Positions 6,226 to 35,713 of a stretch of 35,713 bases of DNA are shown here, in pieces (position 1 is the stretch's first letter; each line of letters opens with the position of its first letter). The translations under genes were made by a program, and so were the position numbers. The notes under the pieces are model-generated. The model did not search any database. It was given only the letters and a program-made list of their open reading frames with translations, and was not told the origin of the DNA. This DNA comes from a virus, in IMG/VR virus record IMGVR_UViG_3300010413_000099, positions 1 to 35,713 of that record. One strand, written 5' to 3'.

Positions 6226-6498
6226 ATGGACGGTGAAATGCCAGATGTATTTAATGCGGAAAGGCCAAAGGCCAACAAAGAGCATATCTGCCTTGAGTGT
6301 GGGAAAACTATAAAGAAGGGTGAGAGGTATGTTAGATCGCAAGGCCATTGGCCTGACCTTGGATGGGCAACATTTAAAACCTGTGAAGATTGCGAAGAGC
6401 TGAGGGCTGAATTGCATGACCCTGATTTTGGAAGCCCACCGTTCGGATATTTGGCAGAATGGGCACAAGAGGCAGAGGTTGAATTTCCGAGGCAATAG
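6226..6498 (+). CDS. Four-cysteine zinc-binding phage protein
   Basis: The 90-residue protein has two knuckles, CLECGKTIKKGERY and TCEDCEEL, giving a CxxC...CxxC site as in a widespread family of small phage proteins starting with a KEHxCxxCGxxI pattern. ATG 6226 has AAAGGAG upstream; the longer reading from 6184 has no ribosome site. Its TAG stop lies directly against the first attC-like hairpin of array A, but no matching core site was found upstream of it, so it is treated as resident phage sequence rather than a cassette. Confidence 0.75.
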   Translation: MDGEMPDVFNAERPKANKEHICLECGKTIKKGERYVRSQGHWPDLGWATFKTCEDCEELRAELHDPDFGSPPFGYLAEWAQEAEVEFPRQ

Positions 6499-6553
6499 AA
6501 CATTAGAAATCAAACGCTGTGGCACACAGTCGATTTGAATTGACTGGTTAGTG
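6496..6553 (+). other. attC-like site A1 (compact hairpin)
   Basis: After the TAG of the preceding gene, AAC (6499-6501) opens a long imperfect hairpin. AAATCAAACG (6507-6516) pairs with CGATTTGAATT (6531-6541) with unmatched bases, and CTGTG (6517) pairs with CACAG (6525) over a 3-base loop. The core GTTAGTG follows at 6547. The bulged bases in an otherwise paired stem are the extrahelical bases expected in attC sites. Confidence 0.75.
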
Positions 6554-6573
6554 CGCTGCCAATAGGAGTCAAC

Positions 6574-6762
6574 ATGAAAAGAAGCATTATTTTGGAAGGA
6601 ATGGACACTGAATTAGTTTTATCAAAGGTTGTTGAAATAGACACCAAAATAGAGACAATTAACTTTGAAAAGATGAAAGATGGGACATGGAGATTGATTT
6701 ATTCCAAGGGAACAATCCCTGACATTAGCAAATTAACAGCCTTGCGCTTAAACAGAGAATAG
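6574..6762 (+). CDS. Array A cassette 1: small unknown protein
   Basis: The 62-residue product begins behind AGGAG with ATG inside the cassette. It alternates beta-like and charged stretches (SIILEGMDTELVLSKVVEID, then GTWRLIYSKGTIP) and has no cysteines or membrane segment. Its boundaries are GTTAGTGCGCT (6547-6557) and AGCGCACTAAC (6761-6771), an exact 11-base inverted pair, and the stop codon TAG touches the inverse core as in ordinary integron cassettes. Function unknown. Confidence 0.7.
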   Translation: MKRSIILEGMDTELVLSKVVEIDTKIETINFEKMKDGTWRLIYSKGTIPDISKLTALRLNRE

Positions 6763-6896
6763 CGCACTAACATTAGAATTGAGGAGCAAGCGAATGACTG
6801 AAGAAATAGAACCATATTGGATTGAAGATGAAAACGGCAAACCAAAGCCCTGCAAGACAAGCGTAAGCGAAGTCGCCTCGAATGATGGGGTTAAAC
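6761..6896 (+). other. attC-like site A2, carrying the next gene's start
   Basis: Inverse core AGCGCACTAAC (6761-6771) and core GTTAAAC (6890-6896) flank arms in which ATTGAGG (6778-6784) pairs with CCTCGAAT (6876-6883) around one bulged base. GAGGAG and the ATG at 6794 of the next gene lie in the loop. Length is about 136 bases, within the range known for attC sites. Confidence 0.7.
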
Positions 6897-7057
6897 CTGC
6901 CGCCTGCATATGGGAATATAATTCAGACAAGTTTGGCGAAGACACTTGGCAAACAAGTTGCGGAAATTCTTTTATATTGCTAGAGGGTGTTCCGAACGAC
7001 AATAAAATGAAATATTGTTGTTATTGTGGCGGCGCACTCACAGAAAAGCAGGTTTAA
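6794..7057 (+). CDS. Array A cassette 2: zinc-ribbon-like protein
   Basis: The 87-residue protein ends in a probable metal site (KYCCYCGGAL), with further cysteines at AACIW and TSCGN. GAGGAG precedes ATG 6794. The cassette proper starts only at the core GTTAAACCTGC (6890-6900), so the first 32 residues are encoded by the preceding attC-like site and the cassette enters in frame as VKPAACIWEY. The inverse core GCAGGTTTAAC (7048-7058) contains the stop codon. A C-terminal CCYCG of this type is common in small Lar-like or uncharacterised phage and cassette proteins; function unknown. Confidence 0.7.
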   Translation: MTEEIEPYWIEDENGKPKPCKTSVSEVASNDGVKPAACIWEYNSDKFGEDTWQTSCGNSFILLEGVPNDNKMKYCCYCGGALTEKQV

Positions 7058-7126
7058 CAATGGAAATAACCCGGTTTGAACGAACGGAGTGAGTGAAAAT
7101 CCGCTGGTTGATTGACCGGGTTAGGC
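7048..7126 (+). other. attC-like site A3
   Basis: Inverse core GCAGGTTTAAC (7048-7058) is followed by an exact 9-base inverted pair TAACCCGGT (7067-7075) / ACCGGGTTA (7115-7123), with core GTTAGGC at 7120. The site is a close relative of the one at 13842-13909: both show TAAC, eight bases, then TAACCCGGTTTGA, with divergent loops and the same right arm. This is the best pair for proving a common site family in the two arrays. Confidence 0.8.
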
Positions 7127-7156
7127 ATTTAAATTTTAATGGAGGATTACATAGCC

Positions 7157-7345
7157 ATGAAAAAGTTTAAAAAGATAGTGCTGTACCTTATGGGCATGGA
7201 GCTTCACAAATACGCCGTTTATAAGAAGAACGGAGAGAGGATAGAGGGGCTTATTGCAACAGACGCGAAAGGGCTGCAAGCCATGAAAGAAAGTTTCAGA
7301 TCGGACTTCAACAATGTGTCCGATTCCTTTTTGGCTGATGCCTAA
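7157..7345 (+). CDS. Array A cassette 3: small unknown protein
   Basis: The 62-residue basic protein (MKKFKKIVLYLMGMELHKYA...) starts behind GGAGG with ATG 7157 inside the cassette; an in-frame ATG at 7139 overlaps the ribosome site and is less likely. Core GTTAGGCAT (7120-7128) and inverse core ATGCCTAAC (7338-7346) are exact complements and the TAA stop lies in the inverse core. The C-terminal half is helical. Function unknown. Confidence 0.7.
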   Translation: MKKFKKIVLYLMGMELHKYAVYKKNGERIEGLIATDAKGLQAMKESFRSDFNNVSDSFLADA

Positions 7346-7464
7346 CGGTGATTTCAGGGGAAACGGATTAAGGAGGAAGAGCATGGAAGAGAAAAAGAAG
7401 ACAGAAAATAAAAGAAGCCCAATTGAAACGGCGGGTAGTTTTCCCTTGCAAAGTGGGGTTATAA
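7338..7464 (+). other. attC-like site A4 with ribosome site and start codon in its loop
   Basis: Between inverse core ATGCCTAAC (7338-7346) and core GTTATAA (7458), the left arm TAACGGTGATTTCAGGGGAA is complementary, with bulges, to the right arm ending GTTTTCCC...AAGTGGGGTTA. The loop contains GGAGGAAGAGCATGGAAG, which recurs exactly in the site at 14110-14234. This motif is the ribosome site and start of the next ORF. Confidence 0.75.
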
Positions 7465-7613
7465 AGCCCTGCCCGTTTTGTGGCAGTAAAGCTGAACTTA
7501 AAAAGGGAAATGGAGTTCAGTGCACAAATAAAGCAAAGTGTGGAATAGTTGGGCCTAGGTATGGCTTGAAAGACAATTTAACGATTGAGGCCTGGAATAA
7601 GAGGGCTTTATAA
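7383..7613 (+). CDS. Array A cassette 4: Lar-like restriction alleviation protein
   Basis: Residues 26-76 carry the Lar-type pattern: IKPCPFCGSKAEL, a second pair in CTNKAKCG, and the terminal EAWNKRA. Lar proteins of phages and prophages relieve type I restriction, and many small zinc-ribbon relatives exist. The whole recognisable domain begins exactly at the cassette core (GTTATAAAGCCC, 7458-7469, read as V-I-K-P), while the first 25 residues come from the upstream attC-like loop. The cassette closes with GGGCTTTATAAC (7603-7614), a perfect 12-base complement of its core. Family call is firm; the antirestriction role is inherited from the family. Confidence 0.8.
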   Translation: MEEKKKTENKRSPIETAGSFPLQSGVIKPCPFCGSKAELKKGNGVQCTNKAKCGIVGPRYGLKDNLTIEAWNKRAL

Positions 7614-7729
7614 CAGTTTGATAAGCTGTGGCAATGAGCTGCGCAAAACTTAAAGATGAAGGGAGAAAGAGAATGTTGAAAACTAGATTGAAAACCGTGT
7701 TTGCCATCTGCTTGATTTTTGGGTTAGTT
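7603..7729 (+). other. attC-like site A5, loop encodes a signal peptide
   Basis: GGGCTTTATAAC (7603-7614) and core GTTAGTT (7723) enclose arms with AAGCTGTGGCAA on the left matching TTGCCATCTGCTT on the right, with mismatched and extra bases between. The loop carries GGGAG and the ATG at 7673 plus most of the lipoprotein signal sequence of the next ORF. Confidence 0.7.
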
Positions 7730-7948
7730 GGCTGCTCTATCGAAGGCGAGATGCAAAATAAAAACATGTTAATAAACTGCACAGACACTAGGGATGGCGA
7801 AAAGTGGAGTTATAACACAAATACAGTAAGCAATGTGCGGGTAGGCATAGGCAGCCCGCATTCGATGGACTTGGTTGACACCGAGGGGCGCAAAAGACAT
7901 GTGACAAGTGACATGGAAACATATATTAAATGTGTGCCAGCCAACTAA
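7673..7948 (+). CDS. Array A cassette 5: small lipoprotein
   Basis: The 91-residue protein has a bacterial lipoprotein signal: basic start (MLKTRLK), hydrophobic core (TVFAICLIFG) and lipobox LVGC, with Cys21 as the lipidation site. The mature part is about 71 polar residues with two more cysteines (INCTD, IKCVPAN). The cassette core GTTAGTTGGCTG (7723-7734) falls in the lipobox, so the signal's hydrophobic core comes from the upstream site while L-V-G-C onward belongs to the cassette. The inverse core is CAGCCAACTAAC (7938-7949). Possible role: surface exclusion of other phages, as for some phage lipoproteins; not shown. Confidence 0.7.
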   Translation: MLKTRLKTVFAICLIFGLVGCSIEGEMQNKNMLINCTDTRDGEKWSYNTNTVSNVRVGIGSPHSMDLVDTEGRKRHVTSDMETYIKCVPAN

Positions 7949-7980
7949 CCAGGTAATATCAAGACTCCGCTATCAAACAA
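7946..7980 (+). repeat. Terminal 35-base repeat of array A
   Basis: Bases 7946-7980 are identical to 15423-15457. Each copy begins with the TAAC of the last cassette's inverse core and ends with CAAACAA; the sequences differ on both sides. No complementary right arm or GTT core follows, so it looks like the left half of an attC-like site joined to phage DNA. It marks the right boundary of both arrays. Confidence 0.9.
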
Positions 7981-8136
7981 AGTCGATAAATCTAAATATT
8001 ATCAAATACTTAAAGTAAATACTTAAACTAAAAGATTAATATTTAAAGTTAATAAATTAATATTGACAGTTTGAATCAAGTTTGATAACTTATTCATAGT
8101 CGCGTGCGGCGGCTGTCTAACCTGTAACGGGGACGT
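7981..8136. other. AT-rich spacer after array A
   Basis: No convincing gene lies here. The stretch is very A+T-rich and repetitive, with ATACTTAAA twice, TTAATATT-type palindromes and AAGTTAATAAATTAATATT. TTGACA at 8063 with TAACTT 17 bases later (8086) could be a weak promoter for the methyltransferase. An origin or operator is possible from composition but unsupported. Confidence 0.5.
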
Positions 8137-8323: not shown

Positions 8324-9400
8324 ATGAAACACAAATTTCCATATAAATGGAACTTGAAAGACGGCTATCCTGAAAAGAATGGATTGAAAGTCTTTTCATG
8401 TTTTGCTTGTGGTGGTGGCTCGACTATGGGATATAAGCTTGCAGGGTATGAGGTTTTAGGTGCAAATGAAATTGATCCTAAAATGGCGGAATGTTACAAG
8501 GTGAATCATAATCCAAAATATCTATATGTTGAGCCAATACAGGAATTTAAACTTAGGAAAGATTTACCAAGGGAATTATATAACCTAGATATTCTTGATG
8601 GTTCTCCACCTTGCAGTTCTTTTTCAATGGCCGGCAATAGAGAAAAGGATTGGGGGAAGGAAAAGAAATTCAGAGAAGGCCAGGCTGATCAGGTGCTTGA
8701 TACTTTGTTCTTTGATTTTATTGATCTAGCTGAAAGACTACAGCCTAAAGTTGTGATTGCAGAGAATGTCAAAGGTCTTCTTCTTGGTGATGCTAAAAAG
8801 TATGTATGGCAAATATATCAAGCATTTGACAAAGCTGGCTATTATGTTCATAAGTGGTTGCTTGATGCTTCAAAGATGGGAGTTCCACAAAGAAGGGAAA
8901 GAGTGTTTTTTGTAGCTATTCGGAAAGACCTGACAAGCAAGATAGACTGTGCATGGAAAATGGACTTGTTTAATCCTATGCCGCACCTTGATTTAGAATT
9001 TGACGAGCCTGAAATAGTATTTAGTCAAATTGAAGAAGTAGGGGCCCAAAAAGGTGATATTAAAGTTTACCCTTCAATATTGGAAATGTGGCAAAGAACT
9101 ACATTAGGTAAAACGATGACAAGAAAATCAGGAGCCACAGCAGTTTCACATTATAAATTGCACCCGGATAAGGTTCTTGACACAATTATAGCAAGTGAAG
9201 CTGCTGGGCCCTATCATCATGAAATACCACGTTCATTGACAAAAAATGAATATTGCAATGCTGGGAGCTATCCAGAAGATTATGAATTTATGGGAAATAT
9301 GGTTAAATATTTAATTGGTATGTCAGTACCACCAGTAATGACTGCACAGATAGCAAGTAGGATAAGGGAACAGTGGTTTGATAGGATGCGAAATGATTGA
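8324..9400 (+). CDS. C5-cytosine DNA methyltransferase
   Basis: The 358-residue enzyme shows the ordered motifs of the C5 family: motif I FACGGGSTMGYKLAG (about 27-41), motif IV GSPPCSSFS with catalytic Cys97, motif VI ENVKG, motif VIII QRRERVFF, a target-recognition region, and motif X GMSVPPVMTAQIA near the end. It transfers a methyl group from SAM to cytosine C5 in a specific site. No matching restriction endonuclease is adjacent, so it is an orphan, likely protecting phage DNA. Its codons are visibly more A/T-ending than those of the capsid genes, which with its place beside array A suggests separate acquisition. The start lacks a strong ribosome site. Confidence 0.92.
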   Translation: MKHKFPYKWNLKDGYPEKNGLKVFSCFACGGGSTMGYKLAGYEVLGANEIDPKMAECYKVNHNPKYLYVEPIQEFKLRKDLPRELYNLDILDGSPPCSSFSMAGNREKDWGKEKKFREGQADQVLDTLFFDFIDLAERLQPKVVIAENVKGLLLGDAKKYVWQIYQAFDKAGYYVHKWLLDASKMGVPQRRERVFFVAIRKDLTSKIDCAWKMDLFNPMPHLDLEFDEPEIVFSQIEEVGAQKGDIKVYPSILEMWQRTTLGKTMTRKSGATAVSHYKLHPDKVLDTIIASEAAGPYHHEIPRSLTKNEYCNAGSYPEDYEFMGNMVKYLIGMSVPPVMTAQIASRIREQWFDRMRND

Positions 9401-11625: not shown

Positions 11626-12270
11626 ATGATTGAATTATTAAATATTGACTGCATGGAATATATGGCGACACAGCCTGACAATGCGTTTGATCTTGCGATA
11701 GTAGATCCGCCTTATGGAATCAAGGAAGATGGGCACCGCGAAAATAATAGATCAAAACTTGCAACTTCAAAAAAATATCACAAAGCTTTATGGGATCAGG
11801 AAAGGCCGACAAAAGAATATTTCAATCAATTGTTCAGGATTAGCAAAAATCAAATCATATGGGGGGCGAATCATCTTTGTGATTTGTTCAATGCTAAGTC
11901 GTCATGTTGGCTAGTATGGGATAAAAACAATTCAGGAAACTTCGCAGATTGCGAACTAGCCTTTGCCTCTTTTGAAACTGCAGTCAGAAAATTTGAATTT
12001 ACATGGAATGGAATGTTACAAGGGAACATGAAAGAAAAAGAAATCCGCATTCATCCGACACAGAAGCCAATTGCACTTTATCGTTGGATGATGGAAAATT
12101 ACGCCGAAAAAGGTCAACGCATACTTGACACACATGGCGGAAGTATGTCAAGCGCGATAGCCGGTCATTATTTTGGCGCTGACATGGTCATTTGTGAAAT
12201 AGATGAAATATATTTCAATGAAGCAAAGGAAAGGTTCGACCGTGAAACAAAACAAATTGCAATGTTTTAA
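11626..12270 (+). CDS. DNA N6-adenine/N4-cytosine methyltransferase
   Basis: The 214-residue enzyme has catalytic motif IV DPPY (27-30) near the N-terminus and the SAM-binding motif I near the C-terminus (LDTHGGSMSSAIA), with the HPTQKP phrase before it. That order is the beta class. The SAM motif reads DTHGGS where DPFxGSG or DTHLGS is usual, as in known phage relatives. No endonuclease partner is present, so it is an orphan that probably masks phage DNA or times replication. It is the second methyltransferase of this genome. Confidence 0.9.
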   Translation: MIELLNIDCMEYMATQPDNAFDLAIVDPPYGIKEDGHRENNRSKLATSKKYHKALWDQERPTKEYFNQLFRISKNQIIWGANHLCDLFNAKSSCWLVWDKNNSGNFADCELAFASFETAVRKFEFTWNGMLQGNMKEKEIRIHPTQKPIALYRWMMENYAEKGQRILDTHGGSMSSAIAGHYFGADMVICEIDEIYFNEAKERFDRETKQIAMF

Positions 12271-13274: not shown

Positions 13275-13844
13275 ATGCCAAAGAAGAAAAACAGCAAGAC
13301 GCAAACAATCAAGGTTGCCAGGGTCGAAGATTTGACGCCGAAACAACAGGCCTTCATTCGTGAATACCCGGTTGACTTCAACGCGACACAGGCGGCAATC
13401 AGGGCTGGATATAGCGTCAAAGGGGCACAGCAACAGGCTTCAAGATTATTGTTGAATGTTGTCATTCAGGAATCAATCAGGACACAGGTCGATCGCCGGA
13501 ACAAGGCCATTGAAAAGAAGGTCGATGTCAGCGCCGCATGGGTTATTGACAGGCTTGTCAAGACGGTTGACAGGTGCATGCAGATTACACCGGTCATGGA
13601 AAAGATCGACGGGGAATGGGTCGAGACAGGGGAATTCAAGTTCGAACATACCGGATCGAACAAGGCACTTGAAATGATCGGGCGCTATTTGGGAATGTGG
13701 CGGGACAATTTCAACCTGACCGGAACGCTGAACATTCAACATCTTGAAGACGTCCCTTCGGAACTTCTTTTCGCTGTGCTAGAAAAGATTAAGGAATCAG
13801 GGCAGAAGGAAATTATTGTTAATCCAAAGAAGGAATTGCGATAA
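13275..13844 (+). CDS. terS: Terminase small subunit
   Basis: The 189-residue protein has the Terminase_2 pattern: LTPKQQAFIREYPVDFNATQ with AAIRAGYS, a DNA-binding helix-turn-helix (about 20-60), then a helical oligomerisation region and a C-terminal tail (ELLFAVLEKIKESG). It recognises phage DNA and hands it to the large subunit for packaging. Its stop codon TAA lies within the TAAC that opens cassette array B, so the array begins directly at the gene's end and separates it from the large subunit by 2.2 kb. Confidence 0.9.
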   Translation: MPKKKNSKTQTIKVARVEDLTPKQQAFIREYPVDFNATQAAIRAGYSVKGAQQQASRLLLNVVIQESIRTQVDRRNKAIEKKVDVSAAWVIDRLVKTVDRCMQITPVMEKIDGEWVETGEFKFEHTGSNKALEMIGRYLGMWRDNFNLTGTLNIQHLEDVPSELLFAVLEKIKESGQKEIIVNPKKELR

Positions 13845-13909
13845 CGCACGAAATAACCCGGTTTGACGCCATTGGCGGCAAATCCGATGGTTCATTGACC
13901 GGGTTATAT
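13842..13909 (+). other. attC-like site B1
   Basis: The terminase stop merges into TAAC, then after eight bases an exact 9-base inverted pair TAACCCGGT (13854-13862) / ACCGGGTTA (13898-13906) with an internal GCC-ATT-GGC hairpin. Core GTTATAT starts at 13903. It is the sister of the site at 7048-7126, differing mainly in the loop. Confidence 0.8.
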
Positions 13910-13924
13910 TTTTAGGAGGTTAAC

Positions 13925-14110
13925 GTGAAAAGATTAAATAGAAAAAAGATTATAGAAGACTTTGAATATCTCAGACAAGGATTTGCTGATGCCATTATGA
14001 CTAGTCGTTTACATAAAGATGCAATATCTCTGGGAACGTTTAGGGCGTATCACAAGATAGCCAATAAGACAATAGTTGAACTTGGCGGTGAGAGTGTGAA
14101 TACACCTTGA
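13925..14110 (+). CDS. Array B cassette 1: small basic protein
   Basis: The 61-residue protein starts with GTG behind AGGAGG and is helical and basic at the N-terminus (MKRLNRKKIIEDFEYLRQGF), with no cysteines or membrane segment. Core GTTATATTT (13903-13911) and inverse core AAATATAAC (14110-14118) are exact complements, so the gene is fully contained in its cassette. Not recognised; helical helix-turn-helix-like spacing is possible. Confidence 0.65.
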   Translation: MKRLNRKKIIEDFEYLRQGFADAIMTSRLHKDAISLGTFRAYHKIANKTIVELGGESVNTP

Positions 14111-14234
14111 AATATAACGGTGAGTTCAGCCGGAACGGATTAAAAGAAAAAACCCTGAAGGAGGAAGAGCATGGAAGGGCAACAAGACTTATTCAACAAC
14201 ACTGTTAGTGATCGGCTGCAACGGTGGGTTAAGC
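14110..14234 (+). other. attC-like site B2 with ribosome site and start codon in its loop
   Basis: Left arm TAACGGTGAGTTCAGCCG pairs with right arm CGGCTGCAACGGTGGGTTA with one bulged base in TTCAGCCG/CGGCTGCAA, the classic attC irregularity. The loop holds GGAGGAAGAGCATGGAAG, identical to the site at 7338-7464. Inverse core AAATATAAC is at 14110 and core GTTAAGC at 14228. Confidence 0.78.
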
Positions 14235-14428
14235 CTTTTGATGGTTTACGCCCAGGCAAATACATCTTTGAAACAACGCCTGAAAGCAAAGGTGATTATA
14301 TAAAGCGAGAAATTGAGATAGTGGAACATAATGGGGAACTTGGTGTGTTCCTTCGCATGACTGGAGTTATGACAAAATTAAAAGACTTTAGAAGTGATTG
14401 CAGCCTCACTTTGATTGAAGAGGCTTAA
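14171..14428 (+). CDS. Array B cassette 2: small unknown protein
   Basis: The 85-residue protein starts behind GGAGGAAGAGC in the preceding attC-like site. The cassette core GTTAAGCCT (14228-14236) is crossed in frame at W-V-K-P, so the first 19 residues come from that site. The remainder (PGKYIFETTPESKGDYIKRE ... ELGVFLRMTGV) looks like a small beta-barrel. The inverse core AGGCTTAAC (14421-14429) includes the stop codon. No in-frame ATG follows the core early on, so the cassette seems to depend on the upstream start. Function unknown. Confidence 0.65.
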   Translation: MEGQQDLFNNTVSDRLQRWVKPFDGLRPGKYIFETTPESKGDYIKREIEIVEHNGELGVFLRMTGVMTKLKDFRSDCSLTLIEEA

Positions 14429-14488
14429 CGGTGCTGATAACCAGCGCCTGAACCAAGCACCCTATGAAATTCAAAGACGCCGTTAGGC
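14421..14488 (+). other. attC-like site B3
   Basis: TAACGGTG (14426) pairs with the complement ending CGCCGTTA (about 14478-14485) with one G-T pair. Inside is an exact GGTGCT (14430) / AGCACC (14456) pair. The core GTTAGGC (14482) is itself the loop of a GACGCC-GTTA-GGCGTC hairpin (14476-14491). Confidence 0.75.
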
Positions 14489-14551
14489 GTCGAAGTTGAG
14501 CAGCGGGGTTCTATTGCGTGACTATCGAAGAGAAAAAAAGGAGGTAATAAA

Positions 14552-14725
14552 ATGCAAGATTTTTTTTATTGGATGGGAGTTATTTACAGCGGATTGTTTT
14601 TAATGCTGGGAGCCGGAATATTTTCGGGCCTTGTGATGAACTACTTTTATGGCAAACTGAGGGACATTCACGGGATGACTGAGCTTATGACGGCCCTGAG
14701 AGAGCATAAAAAAGGAAAGCAATAG
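14552..14725 (+). CDS. Array B cassette 3: small membrane protein
   Basis: The 57-residue protein has one long hydrophobic stretch (about 4-30, FFYWMGVIYSGLFLMLGAGI) and a basic C-terminus (REHKKGKQ). GGAGG precedes ATG 14552. Its cassette opens with GTTAGGCGTC (14482), but the expected complement at the end is absent, suggesting a decayed 3' site. Topology would suit an exclusion or membrane-accessory peptide; unproven. Confidence 0.65.
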   Translation: MQDFFYWMGVIYSGLFLMLGAGIFSGLVMNYFYGKLRDIHGMTELMTALREHKKGKQ

Positions 14726-14813
14726 AAAAGAGAGCTGAGCGGCTGAGCGAACAGCGTGAGCGAAAGTCCGAAGCTTTTGAAAAAAGCGGTTCTCCAGCGT
14801 GGGGTTATGGCGC
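14726..14813 (+). other. Degenerate attC-like site B4
   Basis: The left half has no recognisable inverse core and instead contains TGAGCG three times. The right half is normal: CCAGCG (14794) pairs with CGCTGG (14811) around core GTTATGG (14804). It is probably a decayed or recombined site. Confidence 0.5.
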
Positions 14814-14845
14814 TGGCTTACTACGAAGACAAAGGAGGAAAGCCG

Positions 14846-15115
14846 ATGGCAATTGAACACACAAACGGGGATTTTGAGATAGGAGATTTCTTTGAAATGC
14901 GAGAAAAGTTCTTTGACATGACAGACAGAGGCGTGCCTGTTAGGGCTTTTCATGTTGGAAACTTTGATGAGCTTCAAAAGAAGGCCGAGGAAAAAACACT
15001 GAAGGAAAGGTTGGAAGCGTTGGAAGCCAAAATTAAGGAAGTAGAAATAGTGAGATCAGACATCATTCATCTGCCGACAAGGGGTGATATGGATAAGCTA
15101 GGCATTGCGCCATAA
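14846..15115 (+). CDS. Array B cassette 4: small coiled-coil protein
   Basis: The 89-residue protein has an N-terminal region with FEIGDFFEMREKFFDM and a helical coiled-coil-like segment (LQKKAEEKTLKERLEALEAK). Start 14846 follows AAAGGAGGAAAG; an in-frame ATG inside the core (14807) is an alternative adding 13 residues. Core GTTATGGCGC (14804-14813) and inverse core GCGCCATAAC (15107-15116) are exact 10-base complements and the stop lies in the latter. Not recognised. Confidence 0.7.
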   Translation: MAIEHTNGDFEIGDFFEMREKFFDMTDRGVPVRAFHVGNFDELQKKAEEKTLKERLEALEAKIKEVEIVRSDIIHLPTRGDMDKLGIAP

Positions 15116-15239
15116 CGCCGAGCTGTGGGGCTTGCGGAAACAAAACTGAGGACGATAAATATGGCACTTAAAGAAGATGACCGCTCAACAGTGAGCACAA
15201 TGACGCGGCAGCAAGTCCCGCACGAGCGCGTTGTTATGC
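15107..15239 (+). other. attC-like site B5 (longest, VCR-like)
   Basis: About 130 bases long. GAGCTGTGGGGCTTGC (15120-15135) pairs with GCAAGTCCCGCACGAGC (15211-15227) with single unmatched bases. The outer parts are GCGCCATAAC and the core GTTATGC (15233), the same core as in Vibrio superintegron repeats. This is the most canonical site of the set. Confidence 0.8.
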
Positions 15240-15418
15240 GTTCTTGCCCCGGATGCGGCGAGAGCTTGTTTGAAGATGAGGAATACTTTGGCGTGTGCAC
15301 GGACTGCAAAGACGGCGCAACCGACCTGGAGGAATTGATGGGTATTGCCATTGGCGAAGACCCTGATGAGCCAGGAGAGATGCCGGACGGAACGAGCGTG
15401 TGCCGGCAGGGCTGGTGA
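15236..15418 (+). CDS. Array B cassette 5: acidic zinc ribbon protein
   Basis: The 60-residue protein begins with CPGCGESLF and has a second pair CTDCKD, so one zinc ribbon, followed by a strongly acidic tail (DLEELMGIAIGEDPDEPGEM). The ATG is inside the core GTTATGC, a common arrangement in integron cassettes. A longer ORF from 15125/15161 runs through the attC-like site in the same frame. GTTATGCGT (15233-15241) and ACGCATAAC (15418-15426) are exact complements. There is no good ribosome site upstream of ATG 15236, so a start at 15161 remains possible. Confidence 0.65.
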   Translation: MRSCPGCGESLFEDEEYFGVCTDCKDGATDLEELMGIAIGEDPDEPGEMPDGTSVCRQGW

Positions 15419-15422
15419 CGCA

Positions 15423-15457
15423 TAACCAGGTAATATCAAGACTCCGCTATCAAACAA
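15423..15457 (+). repeat. Terminal 35-base repeat of array B
   Basis: Identical to 7946-7980. It starts in the inverse core of the last cassette and its final base is the A of the next gene's ATG. As in array A, no right arm or core follows. Confidence 0.9.
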
Positions 15458-15819
15458 TGAACAGATATCAAAAAAAATTCAATTACTTGCAGCGATTATC
15501 TGATCGACAACTTGAAGCCGCTGAAAGGATAAGAATGTCAAGGGACATTCACTATCCTGAATTGTTCGAAGCGCCTGAAGTCTGGTATACTCACACAACA
15601 AAGGATTGGCGAGGCATTGAGAAAACTTTGACCCTTCTTAATAGACAAGGGAAAAGAAATGACAGCTATCATATTGCAGTCAATGGGGTGCAAGTGTTTT
15701 TCAATAAGACGGGCAAGTTTGTATTGAATGAAACAAAATGGCCTTTAATTCTTGGCTTTTCAGATGCAATGAGATTTTGGGCCATGCAGTTTCCAAGAAT
15801 ATCAACGGCTGACAATTAA
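15457..15819 (+). CDS. Phage protein of unknown function
   Basis: The 120-residue protein (MNRYQKKFNYLQRLSDRQLE ... LILGFSDAMRFWAM) has a helical N-terminus and a mixed C-terminal domain. It is likely resident phage sequence at the right edge of array B. The ATG overlaps the array's terminal repeat by one base and no ribosome site is visible, which suggests that the array replaced its original 5' leader. Translation may now depend on coupling to the last cassette. Not recognised. Confidence 0.6.
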   Translation: MNRYQKKFNYLQRLSDRQLEAAERIRMSRDIHYPELFEAPEVWYTHTTKDWRGIEKTLTLLNRQGKRNDSYHIAVNGVQVFFNKTGKFVLNETKWPLILGFSDAMRFWAMQFPRISTADN

Positions 15820-17840: not shown

Positions 17841-18013
17841 ATTGCCCGATTCATGATCAGGACGTCGAACAATGCAATTGTCAAACTGCTGAAGAGTTGA
17901 TAGAATTATCAGGGAAGCAAATATCGGACGGGTCGGCACAATGGGAAGCCGACGCAAAGGCGCTTGATCTATACCGGCAAAGCATGAACAAACAGGGAAG
18001 ATTGAAATTTTAG
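17837..18013 (+). CDS. Small Cys-rich protein, unknown
   Basis: A 58-residue ORF begins in ATGA with the previous stop. It carries CPIHDQDVEQCNCQTAEELI, a C-x2-H...C-x-C set that could bind zinc, then a helical part (QWEADAKALDLYRQSMNKQ). Its TAG stop shares two bases with the tRNA-Gln that follows. Codon use matches neighbours. Function unknown. Confidence 0.6.
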   Translation: MNCPIHDQDVEQCNCQTAEELIELSGKQISDGSAQWEADAKALDLYRQSMNKQGRLKF

Positions 18014-18085
18014 GGCCGTGGTGAAATGGTATCATACAAGACTTTGACTCTCGTGTTGAAGGTTCGATCCCTTCCGGCCCCGCCA
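18012..18085 (+). tRNA. tRNA-Gln (UUG anticodon)
   Basis: All four arms can be drawn: acceptor AGGGCCG/CGGCCCC, D-arm GTGA/TCAT, anticodon loop CTTTGAC with UUG, and T-arm GAAGG-TTCGATC-CCTTC. The discriminator is G (usual for tRNA-Gln) and CCA is encoded. Two weak points are an A-C first acceptor pair and an A-C mismatch in the anticodon stem. It reads CAA. It could aid translation of late genes or be a host-derived remnant. Confidence 0.88.
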
Positions 18086-34042: not shown

Positions 34043-35592
34043 TGGAAATAATATCAGGAGAATGGGGCAAGGTTAAAAGTTTTTATCTTCCTTTTGTAAC
34101 ATATGGCGCGACAGACTTCAAAACAGGTGTCACGCTTGCGGCCGGGGACGTCAAAATCAGCAAGGACGGCGGGGCCTTCACAAATATTGCAACACTTCCG
34201 ACAATAGTCGGAAAATGGATGTATATTACTTTATCCGCAATAGAAATGCAGGCAAGGAATATTGCCGTTGAAATAGTTGATCAGACCGCGACAAAGGTCT
34301 TCGAAGACACGGCCGCGACCTTGTCAACTAATATTAAGGAATGGATGCAAATCCTTTTTGATATCATAGAAAGTCAAAGGGGGTCGCATACCGGGGAAGG
34401 GGAAGTCATTTATTGGGATCCTGACAATGTGACAGGGCTTGCCAGTGATTCAAAATCAGGACTGTCAAGACATGAACCTAAATTGACATATAGTTACAAC
34501 ACCGGGACAGGCGTTCATTCTTTATTGTCAAACAATAAACATCAAATTATTAAATGTATATCAGGCGTAGGCGGGGGGCCTGTCACGGTCAATGAATATA
34601 TCAACATTGATAAGGCCTACACATTCATGAGGGCCGACGGACGTGACTTTCTTGTCGAAGCAACACACAATCAAAGTGAAGCGGTTCTTATCTCAGCGGA
34701 AGGTTGCGAAATTTCAGGAATGAGAATAAAAACAAAGGCAACGGGTAGTCAAGATGCCTTGACGCTTTCCGGGGGATTTGCCCGGGTTTATAAAGTATTT
34801 ATTGATTATTCCAGGGGAAGCGGAATTCTGATTGACAATAGTTCAAACAATATTCTTGATGATTTTTTGATCCAGGATTCGGCACAAGGTGGAAGCGGTC
34901 ACGCTCTTCATATATTGGGCGATACTACTTTGACCGAAAGAAACCTGATCGGCACAGGAAGAATATTTTCAAACGGTAACGGTGGCGGCGGTGCCGATGG
35001 GATCAGGATTGATGGCGCTAATTGTATTCACAATTTTATTCACGGGGGAACAAAGAATCTGATTGTCCATGACAATACAGGATGGGGAATAAATGAAGTC
35101 AATGGCGCCGATGAAACAATTGTTGTCGGGCCGACAGTTCATTTCGGCCATAATGACCTGGGACAAGTAAATCTGACAGGGGTAAAAAGTACGTTTGAAA
35201 ATGTCGAACAATGGGCAACGGCCGTCAATCTTGCAACGCTTCAGACGTCAGTTGACGCCATACCGACACAGCCGGTCACAGTCGTTTCAGCACTTGACGG
35301 GACAGTTCAGTCAAAATATGCTGTCACAGTCGATATGACAGGCAAGAGATTATATTTCGGTGCTAAAAAACAGGCCGGGGATTCTGAATATTCGATTGCA
35401 GTCAAGGAAATTACTTCAGGCGTGACGAACGCGGCCGCTGGTCAGGGAACTATCCCGTTGACATCTTCCGACCTGGCCATTGCGCCTGCAGATTATGACG
35501 CTGAAGTCGAAATGAGAGACAGCGACGGAACAAGCAATCCGATCACTATATTGAAGTTTCAATTGCGTGTTGTTGAACAAGTCATCGTATAG
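34042..35592 (+). CDS. Tail fibre with beta-helix and BppU-like domain
   Basis: The 516-residue protein has three parts. The N-terminal domain (about 1-110: YGATDFKTGVTLAAGDVKIS, IEMQARNIAVEIVDQTA) is a common fibre-attachment module. The centre (about 130-380) is a right-handed parallel beta-helix with SGMRIKT, YSRGSGILIDNSSNNILDDF and DGIRIDGANCIHNFIHGGTK, as in pectate-lyase-like depolymerases. The C-terminus is the Ig-like domain also seen at 2-472. This copy lacks 19 residues present in the left-end copy. It is likely the main receptor-binding or capsule-degrading protein. Confidence 0.85.
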   Translation: MEIISGEWGKVKSFYLPFVTYGATDFKTGVTLAAGDVKISKDGGAFTNIATLPTIVGKWMYITLSAIEMQARNIAVEIVDQTATKVFEDTAATLSTNIKEWMQILFDIIESQRGSHTGEGEVIYWDPDNVTGLASDSKSGLSRHEPKLTYSYNTGTGVHSLLSNNKHQIIKCISGVGGGPVTVNEYINIDKAYTFMRADGRDFLVEATHNQSEAVLISAEGCEISGMRIKTKATGSQDALTLSGGFARVYKVFIDYSRGSGILIDNSSNNILDDFLIQDSAQGGSGHALHILGDTTLTERNLIGTGRIFSNGNGGGGADGIRIDGANCIHNFIHGGTKNLIVHDNTGWGINEVNGADETIVVGPTVHFGHNDLGQVNLTGVKSTFENVEQWATAVNLATLQTSVDAIPTQPVTVVSALDGTVQSKYAVTVDMTGKRLYFGAKKQAGDSEYSIAVKEITSGVTNAAAGQGTIPLTSSDLAIAPADYDAEVEMRDSDGTSNPITILKFQLRVVEQVIV

Positions 35593-35713
35593 AAAGGGGG
35601 CCAGGGATGCCCGAAAAAGACACACATTTTCTACAATCGATAATCGGATTGATAATAACTTTTTTCACAAGCTGGAATATTTTCAATCACAGGCGCCTTG
35701 ATAAAATAAAAGA
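35178..35713. repeat. Right copy of terminal overlap
   Basis: Matches 1-593 without the 57-base segment and with about a dozen substitutions, mostly silent. Residue changes include D/N and E/G in the fibre end and W/S in the next protein. Position 35178 corresponds to base 1 and the window end to base 593. Confidence 0.9.
35607..35713 (+). CDS. XhlA-like membrane protein, N-terminal part (partial)
   Basis: Second, incomplete copy of the gene at 487-771, cut after about 35 residues by the window end. It differs by one residue in the visible part (LQS instead of LQW). The upstream CCAGGG in place of CCATGG removes the alternative ATG, confirming the start. Confidence 0.85.
   Translation, partial: MPEKDTHFLQSIIGLIITFFTSWNIFNHRRLDKIK

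Follow-up and report, generated by a model that had tools for sequence, protein, structure and literature searches.

Can a tailed phage that encodes no integron integrase harbor integron-type gene cassettes, and in which direction would such cassettes sit in its genome? The question was raised by IMG/VR virus record IMGVR_UViG_3300010413_000099, analyzed here over positions 1 to 35,713 (35,713 nucleotides, hereafter the window), in which five consecutive small genes at 6493-7980 (array A) are each bracketed by a GTT core and its reverse complement. The original prediction, made from the sequence alone, described them as integron-type cassettes inside a phage early operon, probably acquired through a host integron integrase. 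Their integron-type character was borne out by the anatomy of the core pairs, by stem covariation, by model matches in a second array (array B) and by attC sequence shared with a second phage, IMGVR_UViG_3300010413_000258 (hereafter phage 2). It was not borne out by attC models run on array A, and the direction of the sites had been missed. Our interpretation, which we consider probable, is that the window holds two backward arrays resembling clusters of attC sites lacking integron integrases (CALINs), with presumed insertion by a host integrase at attI-like flanks of the phage and with the start signals of the genes carried inside attC.

The five exact GTT/AAC pairs of array A were recovered at 6547/6761 (11 bp), 6890/7048 (11 bp), 7120/7338 (9 bp), 7458/7602 (13 bp) and 7723/7938 (12 bp). 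Positions agreed with those first given except for the second member at 7602, placed at 7603, and lengths ranged from 9 to 13 rather than 9 to 12 bases. Identity started at GTT in four of the five pairs, and one base earlier (7722) in the fifth. Such pairing was indeed hard to obtain by chance: five pairs of at least 9 bp were counted in region 6400-8100, versus a mean of 0.07 and a maximum of 2 in 200 shuffles that kept dinucleotides. Over the whole window, ten pairs of at least 9 bp were found (mean 2.35, maximum 8 in 40 whole-window shuffles), namely the five of array A, four at 13903-15426 and one at 13451/13731. The last lies inside the terminase small subunit gene (terS) and was taken as chance. 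Array B, with five cassettes, spans 13839-15458 and includes a near-exact pair with one mismatch (14508 GTTCTATTGC and 14719 GCAATAGAAA), the tenth cassette pair. Nine of the ten core pairs bracketing genes were exact (9-13 bp), and GTT was present in nine of the ten attC cores of the window. Pieces of array A recurring in array B by blastn were the end flank, site a2 (with b0) and parts of site a3 (with b1).

Sites between the genes fold into hairpins with bulged bases, as predicted. In each, two arms pair after 3 to 6 unpaired bases, and one extra base lies 7 to 9 bases from GTT. In 13 sites, taken from the window and from phage 2, 78.7% of stem cells were paired versus 60.2% after shuffling, and both sides had changed in 31 cells versus 12.8; none of 500 shuffles was as high for either measure. 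This covariation counts as support rather than proof, because these same sequences had served to draw the structure.

The position of the extra-helical base displayed a polarity opposed to the genes. It lay on the gene-5' arm at all ten window sites and at six of the seven sites of phage 2 (16 of 17 jointly), and on the gene-3' arm at all three sites of TJE1, a phage whose attC sites have been assayed (Qi et al. 2023, PMC9892861, accessible text), at all eight from Shewanella and at 10 of 14 from a Vibrio phage. A stronger sign than this count was the mean mirror score, which reached 5.32 over the 17 sites versus a maximum of 2.62 under random re-pairing of arms. In an alignment of 43 attC sites (A3), 35 were canonical, the exceptions being seven sites from genome G165, with spacer arms of unequal length, and one from the Vibrio phage. 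The sites of A3 were gathered by a model that places the base on the gene-3' arm, and only the TJE1, Shewanella and Vibrio-phage sets and those of two viral loci (L070, L107) are free of this bias. Cassette genes usually, although not obligatorily, read along the attC polarity; in the window, all ten sites and both significant matches to an independent attC model opposed the genes. From these signs, all ten cassette genes seem to run opposite to the normal cassette direction, so that each cassette would consist of an attC with its gene behind it, and not of a gene with its attC behind it.

Start signals were found inside attC at 8 of the 17 sites of the two phages, as an ATG preceded by a ribosome-binding site (RBS) and a frame that continues across GTT into the gene. 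In the window, five of ten sites (a1, a3, a4, b1 and b3) were of this kind. The start-bearing sites were long (122-132 bases), the other nine measuring 58-92 bases. Read in reverse, start, body and stop fall within one cassette, so that no fusion is needed.

Directly after the last core of each array lies a flank identical at 31 of 32 bases between the arrays (the closest other stretch of the window matched at 21 of 32). Phage 2 harbors its own flank, common to both its arrays (46 of 48 bases including the core), and the flanks of the two phages coincide at only 15 or 14 of 36 positions, best beside the core. On the minus reading, the flank sits at the place of attI and complete sites (a0 and b0) at the place of the last attC. 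By place and conservation alone, the flank would be attI-like, a putative landing site. The terS gene ends in the core of b0, and an empty array B site would then read as the terS stop codon followed by the flank. Non-classical integration sites are known as attG. The attI-like flank could be accounted for by a core-like target of this type, situated outside an integron; the window flank differs from attG in being conserved over about 32 bases, and that of phage 2 over 46 of 48, at two arrays per genome. The exact 32-base flank had no match in the viral_contigs set, and an attI-like pattern search recovered six stretches, two being the arrays of phage 2 and four (L153-L156) lying without an array.

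Phage 2 displayed the same layout as the window, with two backward arrays, start codons inside attC and a shared flank of its own. It was the one contig matched by the pattern of site a2 (locus L066, three cassettes with exact pairs of 10-12 bp), and the flank pattern recovered L066 together with the second array on the same contig (L152, where a very short fifth candidate site near 7350 was excluded from the counts). Over the 20.8 kb compared (of 27.6 kb), blastn aligned attC sequence only, in two alignments both to one site, and tblastn of the 169 window open reading frames (ORFs) of at least 50 amino acids (aa) found nothing at E <= 1e-3. Phage 2 carries baseplate genes, and the window a siphovirus-like set with portal, capsid, tail tube and terminases.

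Three covariance models were used. R1 was built from 17 arms of TJE1, the Vibrio phage and Shewanella (out of 22 arms obtained from 25 starting sites); R2 from 43 attC sites, adding Planctomycetota to the sources of R1 and including none from the window; R3 from the phage sites themselves, and is no independent test. R2 matched b3 at 15110-15239 (30.6 bits, E 3.6e-5) and b1 at 14112-14234 (23.3 bits, E 0.0017), both on the minus strand, and these significant matches in array B support an integron-type identity for the sites. R1 (35.8 bits) and R2 (34.2 bits) both found a phage 2 site (L152 7877-7941), oriented antisense to the genes there. A search with R2 of 100 other loci totaling 1.13 Mb (98 viral loci and 2 from genomes) yielded two matches at E <= 0.5. 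Both fell in viral locus L089, and one stands immediately 5' of a gene for a DNA methyltransferase, antisense to it; that gene is bracketed by a 13-bp core pair. A search of 246 Planctomycetota genomes with R3 returned no match at E <= 0.001, the model being too weak for this to mean absence.

Array A starts at its far end with a complete attC-like site before the first gene (a0, 6495-6553, on the minus strand as are all the attC-like sites), with core GCAATAGAAC ending at 6501 and the extra base in the GTT-side arm. Cassette gene A1 (6574-6762, 62 aa, on the plus strand as are all the cassette genes) has an RBS and ATG after this site and matched no Pfam or PHROGs family at E <= 0.1. Site a1 (6765-6896), with cores of pairs 6547/6761 and 6890/7048 and an ATT[C]GAGG stem, contains the RBS and ATG (6794) of A2 (6794-7057, 87 aa), which matched phrog_10312 (2.3e-5) over residues 37-85 only and has its TAA stop in the core. 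Site a2 (7052-7126) was 86% identical over 69 bases to L066 2202-2266 of phage 2, and 79% over 61 bases to b0. Gene A3 (7157-7345, 62 aa), which matched phrog_20451 at 0.023 only, also has its stop in the core. Site a3 (7340-7464) has a TTT[G]CA stem, has AACGGATTAA and GGAGGAAGAGCATGG in common with b1, and contains the RBS and ATG (7383) of A4 (7383-7613, 76 aa), a predicted Lar-like restriction alleviation protein (PF14354 3e-10, phrog_599 3.9e-8). Because one cassette is Lar-like, anti-restriction is a plausible theme of the cassettes. Site a4 (7608-7729), with an AT[C]AAGC stem, contains the RBS and ATG (7673) of A5 (7673-7948, 91 aa), a putative small lipoprotein by its signal-peptide-like start and LVGC, seen by eye, with no confident Pfam or PHROGs family. 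The array closes with the attI-like end (7946-7981, minus strand), whose conserved flank occupies 7950-7981 and corresponds to 15427-15458 of array B.

Array B starts with site b0 (13839-13909), with an AAT[G]AACC stem, the terS stop codon in its core and 87% identity over 61 bases to L066 of phage 2. Gene B1 (13925-14110, 61 aa) has AGGAGG before a GTG start and, like B2, B3 and B4, no Pfam or PHROGs family. Site b1 contains the RBS and ATG (14171) of B2 (14171-14428, 85 aa), and is followed by site b2 (14423-14514), assigned to the minus strand by its extra base, and by gene B3 (14552-14725, 57 aa), whose core pair is the one with the mismatch. Site b2p (14722-14810) has a GCTG[G]AG stem and a degenerate core. 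Gene B4 (14846-15115) measures 89 aa from its RBS-preceded ATG and was searched as a longer frame from 14756. Site b3 contains the RBS and ATG (15161) of B5 (15161-15418, 85 aa), perhaps zinc-ribbon-like on weak Pfam matches only (E 0.02-0.1). The attI-like end of array B spans 15423-15458 (minus strand).

The absence of an integrase gene, claimed at the outset, was confirmed: the window gave no match to the integron integrase family TIGR02249 and none to the tyrosine recombinase family PF00589 at E <= 1. The record of phage 2 gave none for either family, and both phage records may be incomplete. A complete integron, with intI beside attI, was found in neither the window nor the phage 2 record. 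Two stretches of the window, 1-145 and 202-593, are repeated at its opposite end (35178-35713) with 100% and 96.7% identity, so the window genome may be nearly complete. The repeat between 1-593 and 35178-35713, with a 56-base gap and 13 mismatches, would be either a circular overlap with variation or a duplicated stretch of tail genes.

The best relatives of the large terminase subunit (TerL) in genomes (54%; nine loci in all) belonged to Zavarzinella formosa and a Planctomycetota metagenome-assembled genome, in each of which an integron integrase scored above the cut-off, as in 39 of 246 Planctomycetota genomes. G+C content was 44% in the window versus 57% around the Zavarzinella integrase, and Planctomycetota are taken as a lead to the host and no more. 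At the Zavarzinella formosa integron (L207), the integrase is oriented like the attC sites after it, and more attC sites lie before it.

Two DNA methyltransferase genes lie in the window. The first (C5 type, 8324-9400) directly follows array A and is 64% identical to a methyltransferase in the integron-like array of L070; the bracketed gene of L089 is a relative of it as well. The second (N6/N4 type, 11626-12270) is 53% identical to the TJE1 cassette methyltransferase and 54% to an L070 array gene, with no attC match beside it. A tRNA-Gln gene (TTG, 18012-18085) sits between terL and the portal gene.

Searches for further arrays were made through neighboring genes and through the arrays themselves. 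The 60 viral loci with TerL relatives displayed no clear array and no R2 match, the weak pair chains of two of them (L032, L035) being judged chance, and the exonuclease-like neighbor gene had one distant relative. Methyltransferase relatives were examined in the best 80 of 360 stretches, 38 of these 80 being searched with R2. The pair detector flagged ten loci among the 80, of which four (L070, L107, L109, L137) were inspected; L089 escaped the detector and came to light through R2. L070 (1-4230, a short IMG/VR contig) holds five consecutive core pairs with at least two methyltransferase genes as cassettes. L107 (4156-5054) and L109 (4929-5827) hold three-pair arrays with attC-like sites unrecognized by R2, and by R1 too in L107, perhaps another attC family. 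No match was obtained by blastn of both arrays against phages or of array A against plasmids, none of the 23 new loci of the last two viral scans had an array near the match, and the a2-type site pattern found nothing in genome_contigs.

Clusters of attC sites in phages are already known. CALINs have been published for phages TJE1, PH101, P12002L and MW202573, with recombination in an assay (Qi et al. 2023, PMC9892861, accessible text). In the accessible text of that paper, the cassettes of PH101 and TJE1 are same-direction and typical and attC directions diverge in P12002L, and that text describes no attC opposed to genes, no two-array attI-like flanks and no starts inside attC. Like the window, these phages hold attC clusters without an integrase, carrying methyltransferases and other small cargo. 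R2 recovered three sites in PH101, four in MW202573 (with E 0.053 and 0.82 at the two weak ones) and three in TJE1, which belongs to its training set, and none in P12002L. By annotated gene strands, the cassettes of TJE1 are forward, unlike those of the window. In MW202573, the five annotated genes between sites are on the plus strand and the sites on the minus strand, antisense as in the window. PH101 is also antisense, with two annotated genes between sites on the minus strand and sites on the plus strand but, unlike in the window, with an unannotated forward ORF visible in the second cassette. This strand reading of PH101 is our own, at odds with the accessible text of Qi et al. (2023, PMC9892861), and should be checked. 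Chromosomal integrons of Planctomycetota share the attC build of the window, and the GTT[G]CAGCCG stem of two Zavarzinella attC sites is the b1 stem read on the minus strand; they differ from the window in possessing the integrase and in having mostly forward cassettes. By longest ORF, an unrefined measure in G+C-rich DNA, 35 of 51 cassettes were sense, 12 antisense and 4 undecided (71 of 75 attC matches used). No account of a backward-cassette layout was found in the open-licence literature, preprints excluded (including the accessible part of PMC12901181), and the layout with starts inside attC appears to be new in that no account of it was found.

In the interpretation that we consider probable, both arrays would sit reversed in the tailed-phage genome, with attC polarity on the minus strand and all cassette genes on the plus strand. 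The cassette unit would be one attC followed by its gene, the variable loop of the 122-132-base attC carrying the RBS and start codon of that gene and the stop codon often lying in the core. Downstream of each array, the conserved flank would serve the phage as its attI-like landing site, where an integron integrase, presumably supplied by the host, would insert a circular cassette at G|TT. Each new gene would thereby join the 3' end of the phage operon and bring its own start signals.

Several results weigh against this interpretation. Strict GTTRRRY was found in three of the ten window cores (one of three in TJE1), and no L box was recognized by eye in the attI-like flank. Two weak covariation measures gave 9 pairs with change on both sides versus 7.2 (72 of 500 shuffles as high) and 20 further pair types versus 15.5 (16 of 500 as high). 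Polarity was undecided elsewhere (two sites to two in the L070 array; one canonical site and one tie in the L107 array), and the count of 16 of 17 is modest taken alone, because random arm re-pairing (500 runs) already favored reverse polarity (mean 11.3 of 17 sites, maximum 15). R1 gave no match at the window arrays, though known sites were recovered. On array A alone, R2 gave nothing above noise, the best score being at a2 (7.4 bits plus versus 5.9 minus) and the remaining minus rows reaching 4.7 (a0), 2.1 (a3) and 1.2 bits (a1). Array A had no significant match with either of these canonical models. The other R2 rows in the window were weak and on the plus strand (10.5 bits, E 1.3, at 14435-14501 in b2; 7.4 bits, E 6.2), which leaves eight of the ten window sites without a significant match to the independent attC model, and R3 listed just five of the ten, on the minus strand, four of them below E 0.02. 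No close relative and no relative with changed cassettes was found by the searches, outside which records near the window possibly lie.

We consider it unlikely that the arrays are fossils, captured once from a host integron with its flanking DNA, one of them duplicated, and no longer moving. The lack of an integrase match and the mismatch in the B3 core pair would suit such a history, and the occurrence of one flank at two arrays might come from the copying of a segment; yet the flank is conserved between arrays whose ten cassettes differ, nine of ten core pairs remain exact, and the two-array layout recurs in phage 2 with a different flank sequence.

Less credence still is given to ordinary forward cassettes, in which the extra base would merely lie on the other arm and A2, A4, A5, B2 and B5 would be in-frame fusions to an upstream attC leader. 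This would require repeated lucky in-frame fusions and would put the conserved flank at the wrong end, with a complete attC (a0, b0) at the place of attI; moreover, R2 matched significantly on the minus strand in the window and, for phage 2, on the strand opposed to the genes. Cassettes whose genes follow the attC direction are nevertheless usual, as in the 35 sense cassettes of Planctomycetota, a2 and b2 score weakly on the plus strand, and L070, read as forward from alignments (score 2 to 2), also has two ORFs starting inside the upstream attC. In-frame fusion to the upstream attC was the initial reading, dropped on the extra-base polarity and the shared flank.

It is very improbable that these are no integron structures at all but terminal inverted repeats of another small mobile element, terminators or translational-coupling hairpins: an inverted repeat does bracket each gene and the sites do lie between genes, but the cores vary by gene yet begin at GTT, the inner stem has its extra base at a near-fixed distance, an independent attC model matches, attC-like sites are common with another phage before different genes, and the Rfam search of the window at gathering thresholds returned a tRNA only, without any attC-type family.

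Backward CALIN-like arrays, presumably filled by a host integrase, are retained as the probable interpretation. A broader proposal is offered tentatively and falls short of being probable: some tailed phages may keep integron landing platforms of their own, with a phage-specific attI-like site present twice per genome, downstream of two operons, into which a host integrase would insert cassettes backward, the backward direction being the rule in phages. In such a reversed layout, the gene-sense strand would be the attC strand that folds and recombines, and transcription could expose it. The attC loops with an RBS and start codon would make each new gene translatable at once.

If true, integron-style exchange of genes could be built into the operons of phages that lack an integrase. 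A second design for cassette expression would then exist, with start signals inside attC and growth at the operon 3' end, and transcription exposing the recombining strand would offer a testable reason for the backward polarity. Families of attC sites would offer a means to trace gene exchange between phages and their hosts.

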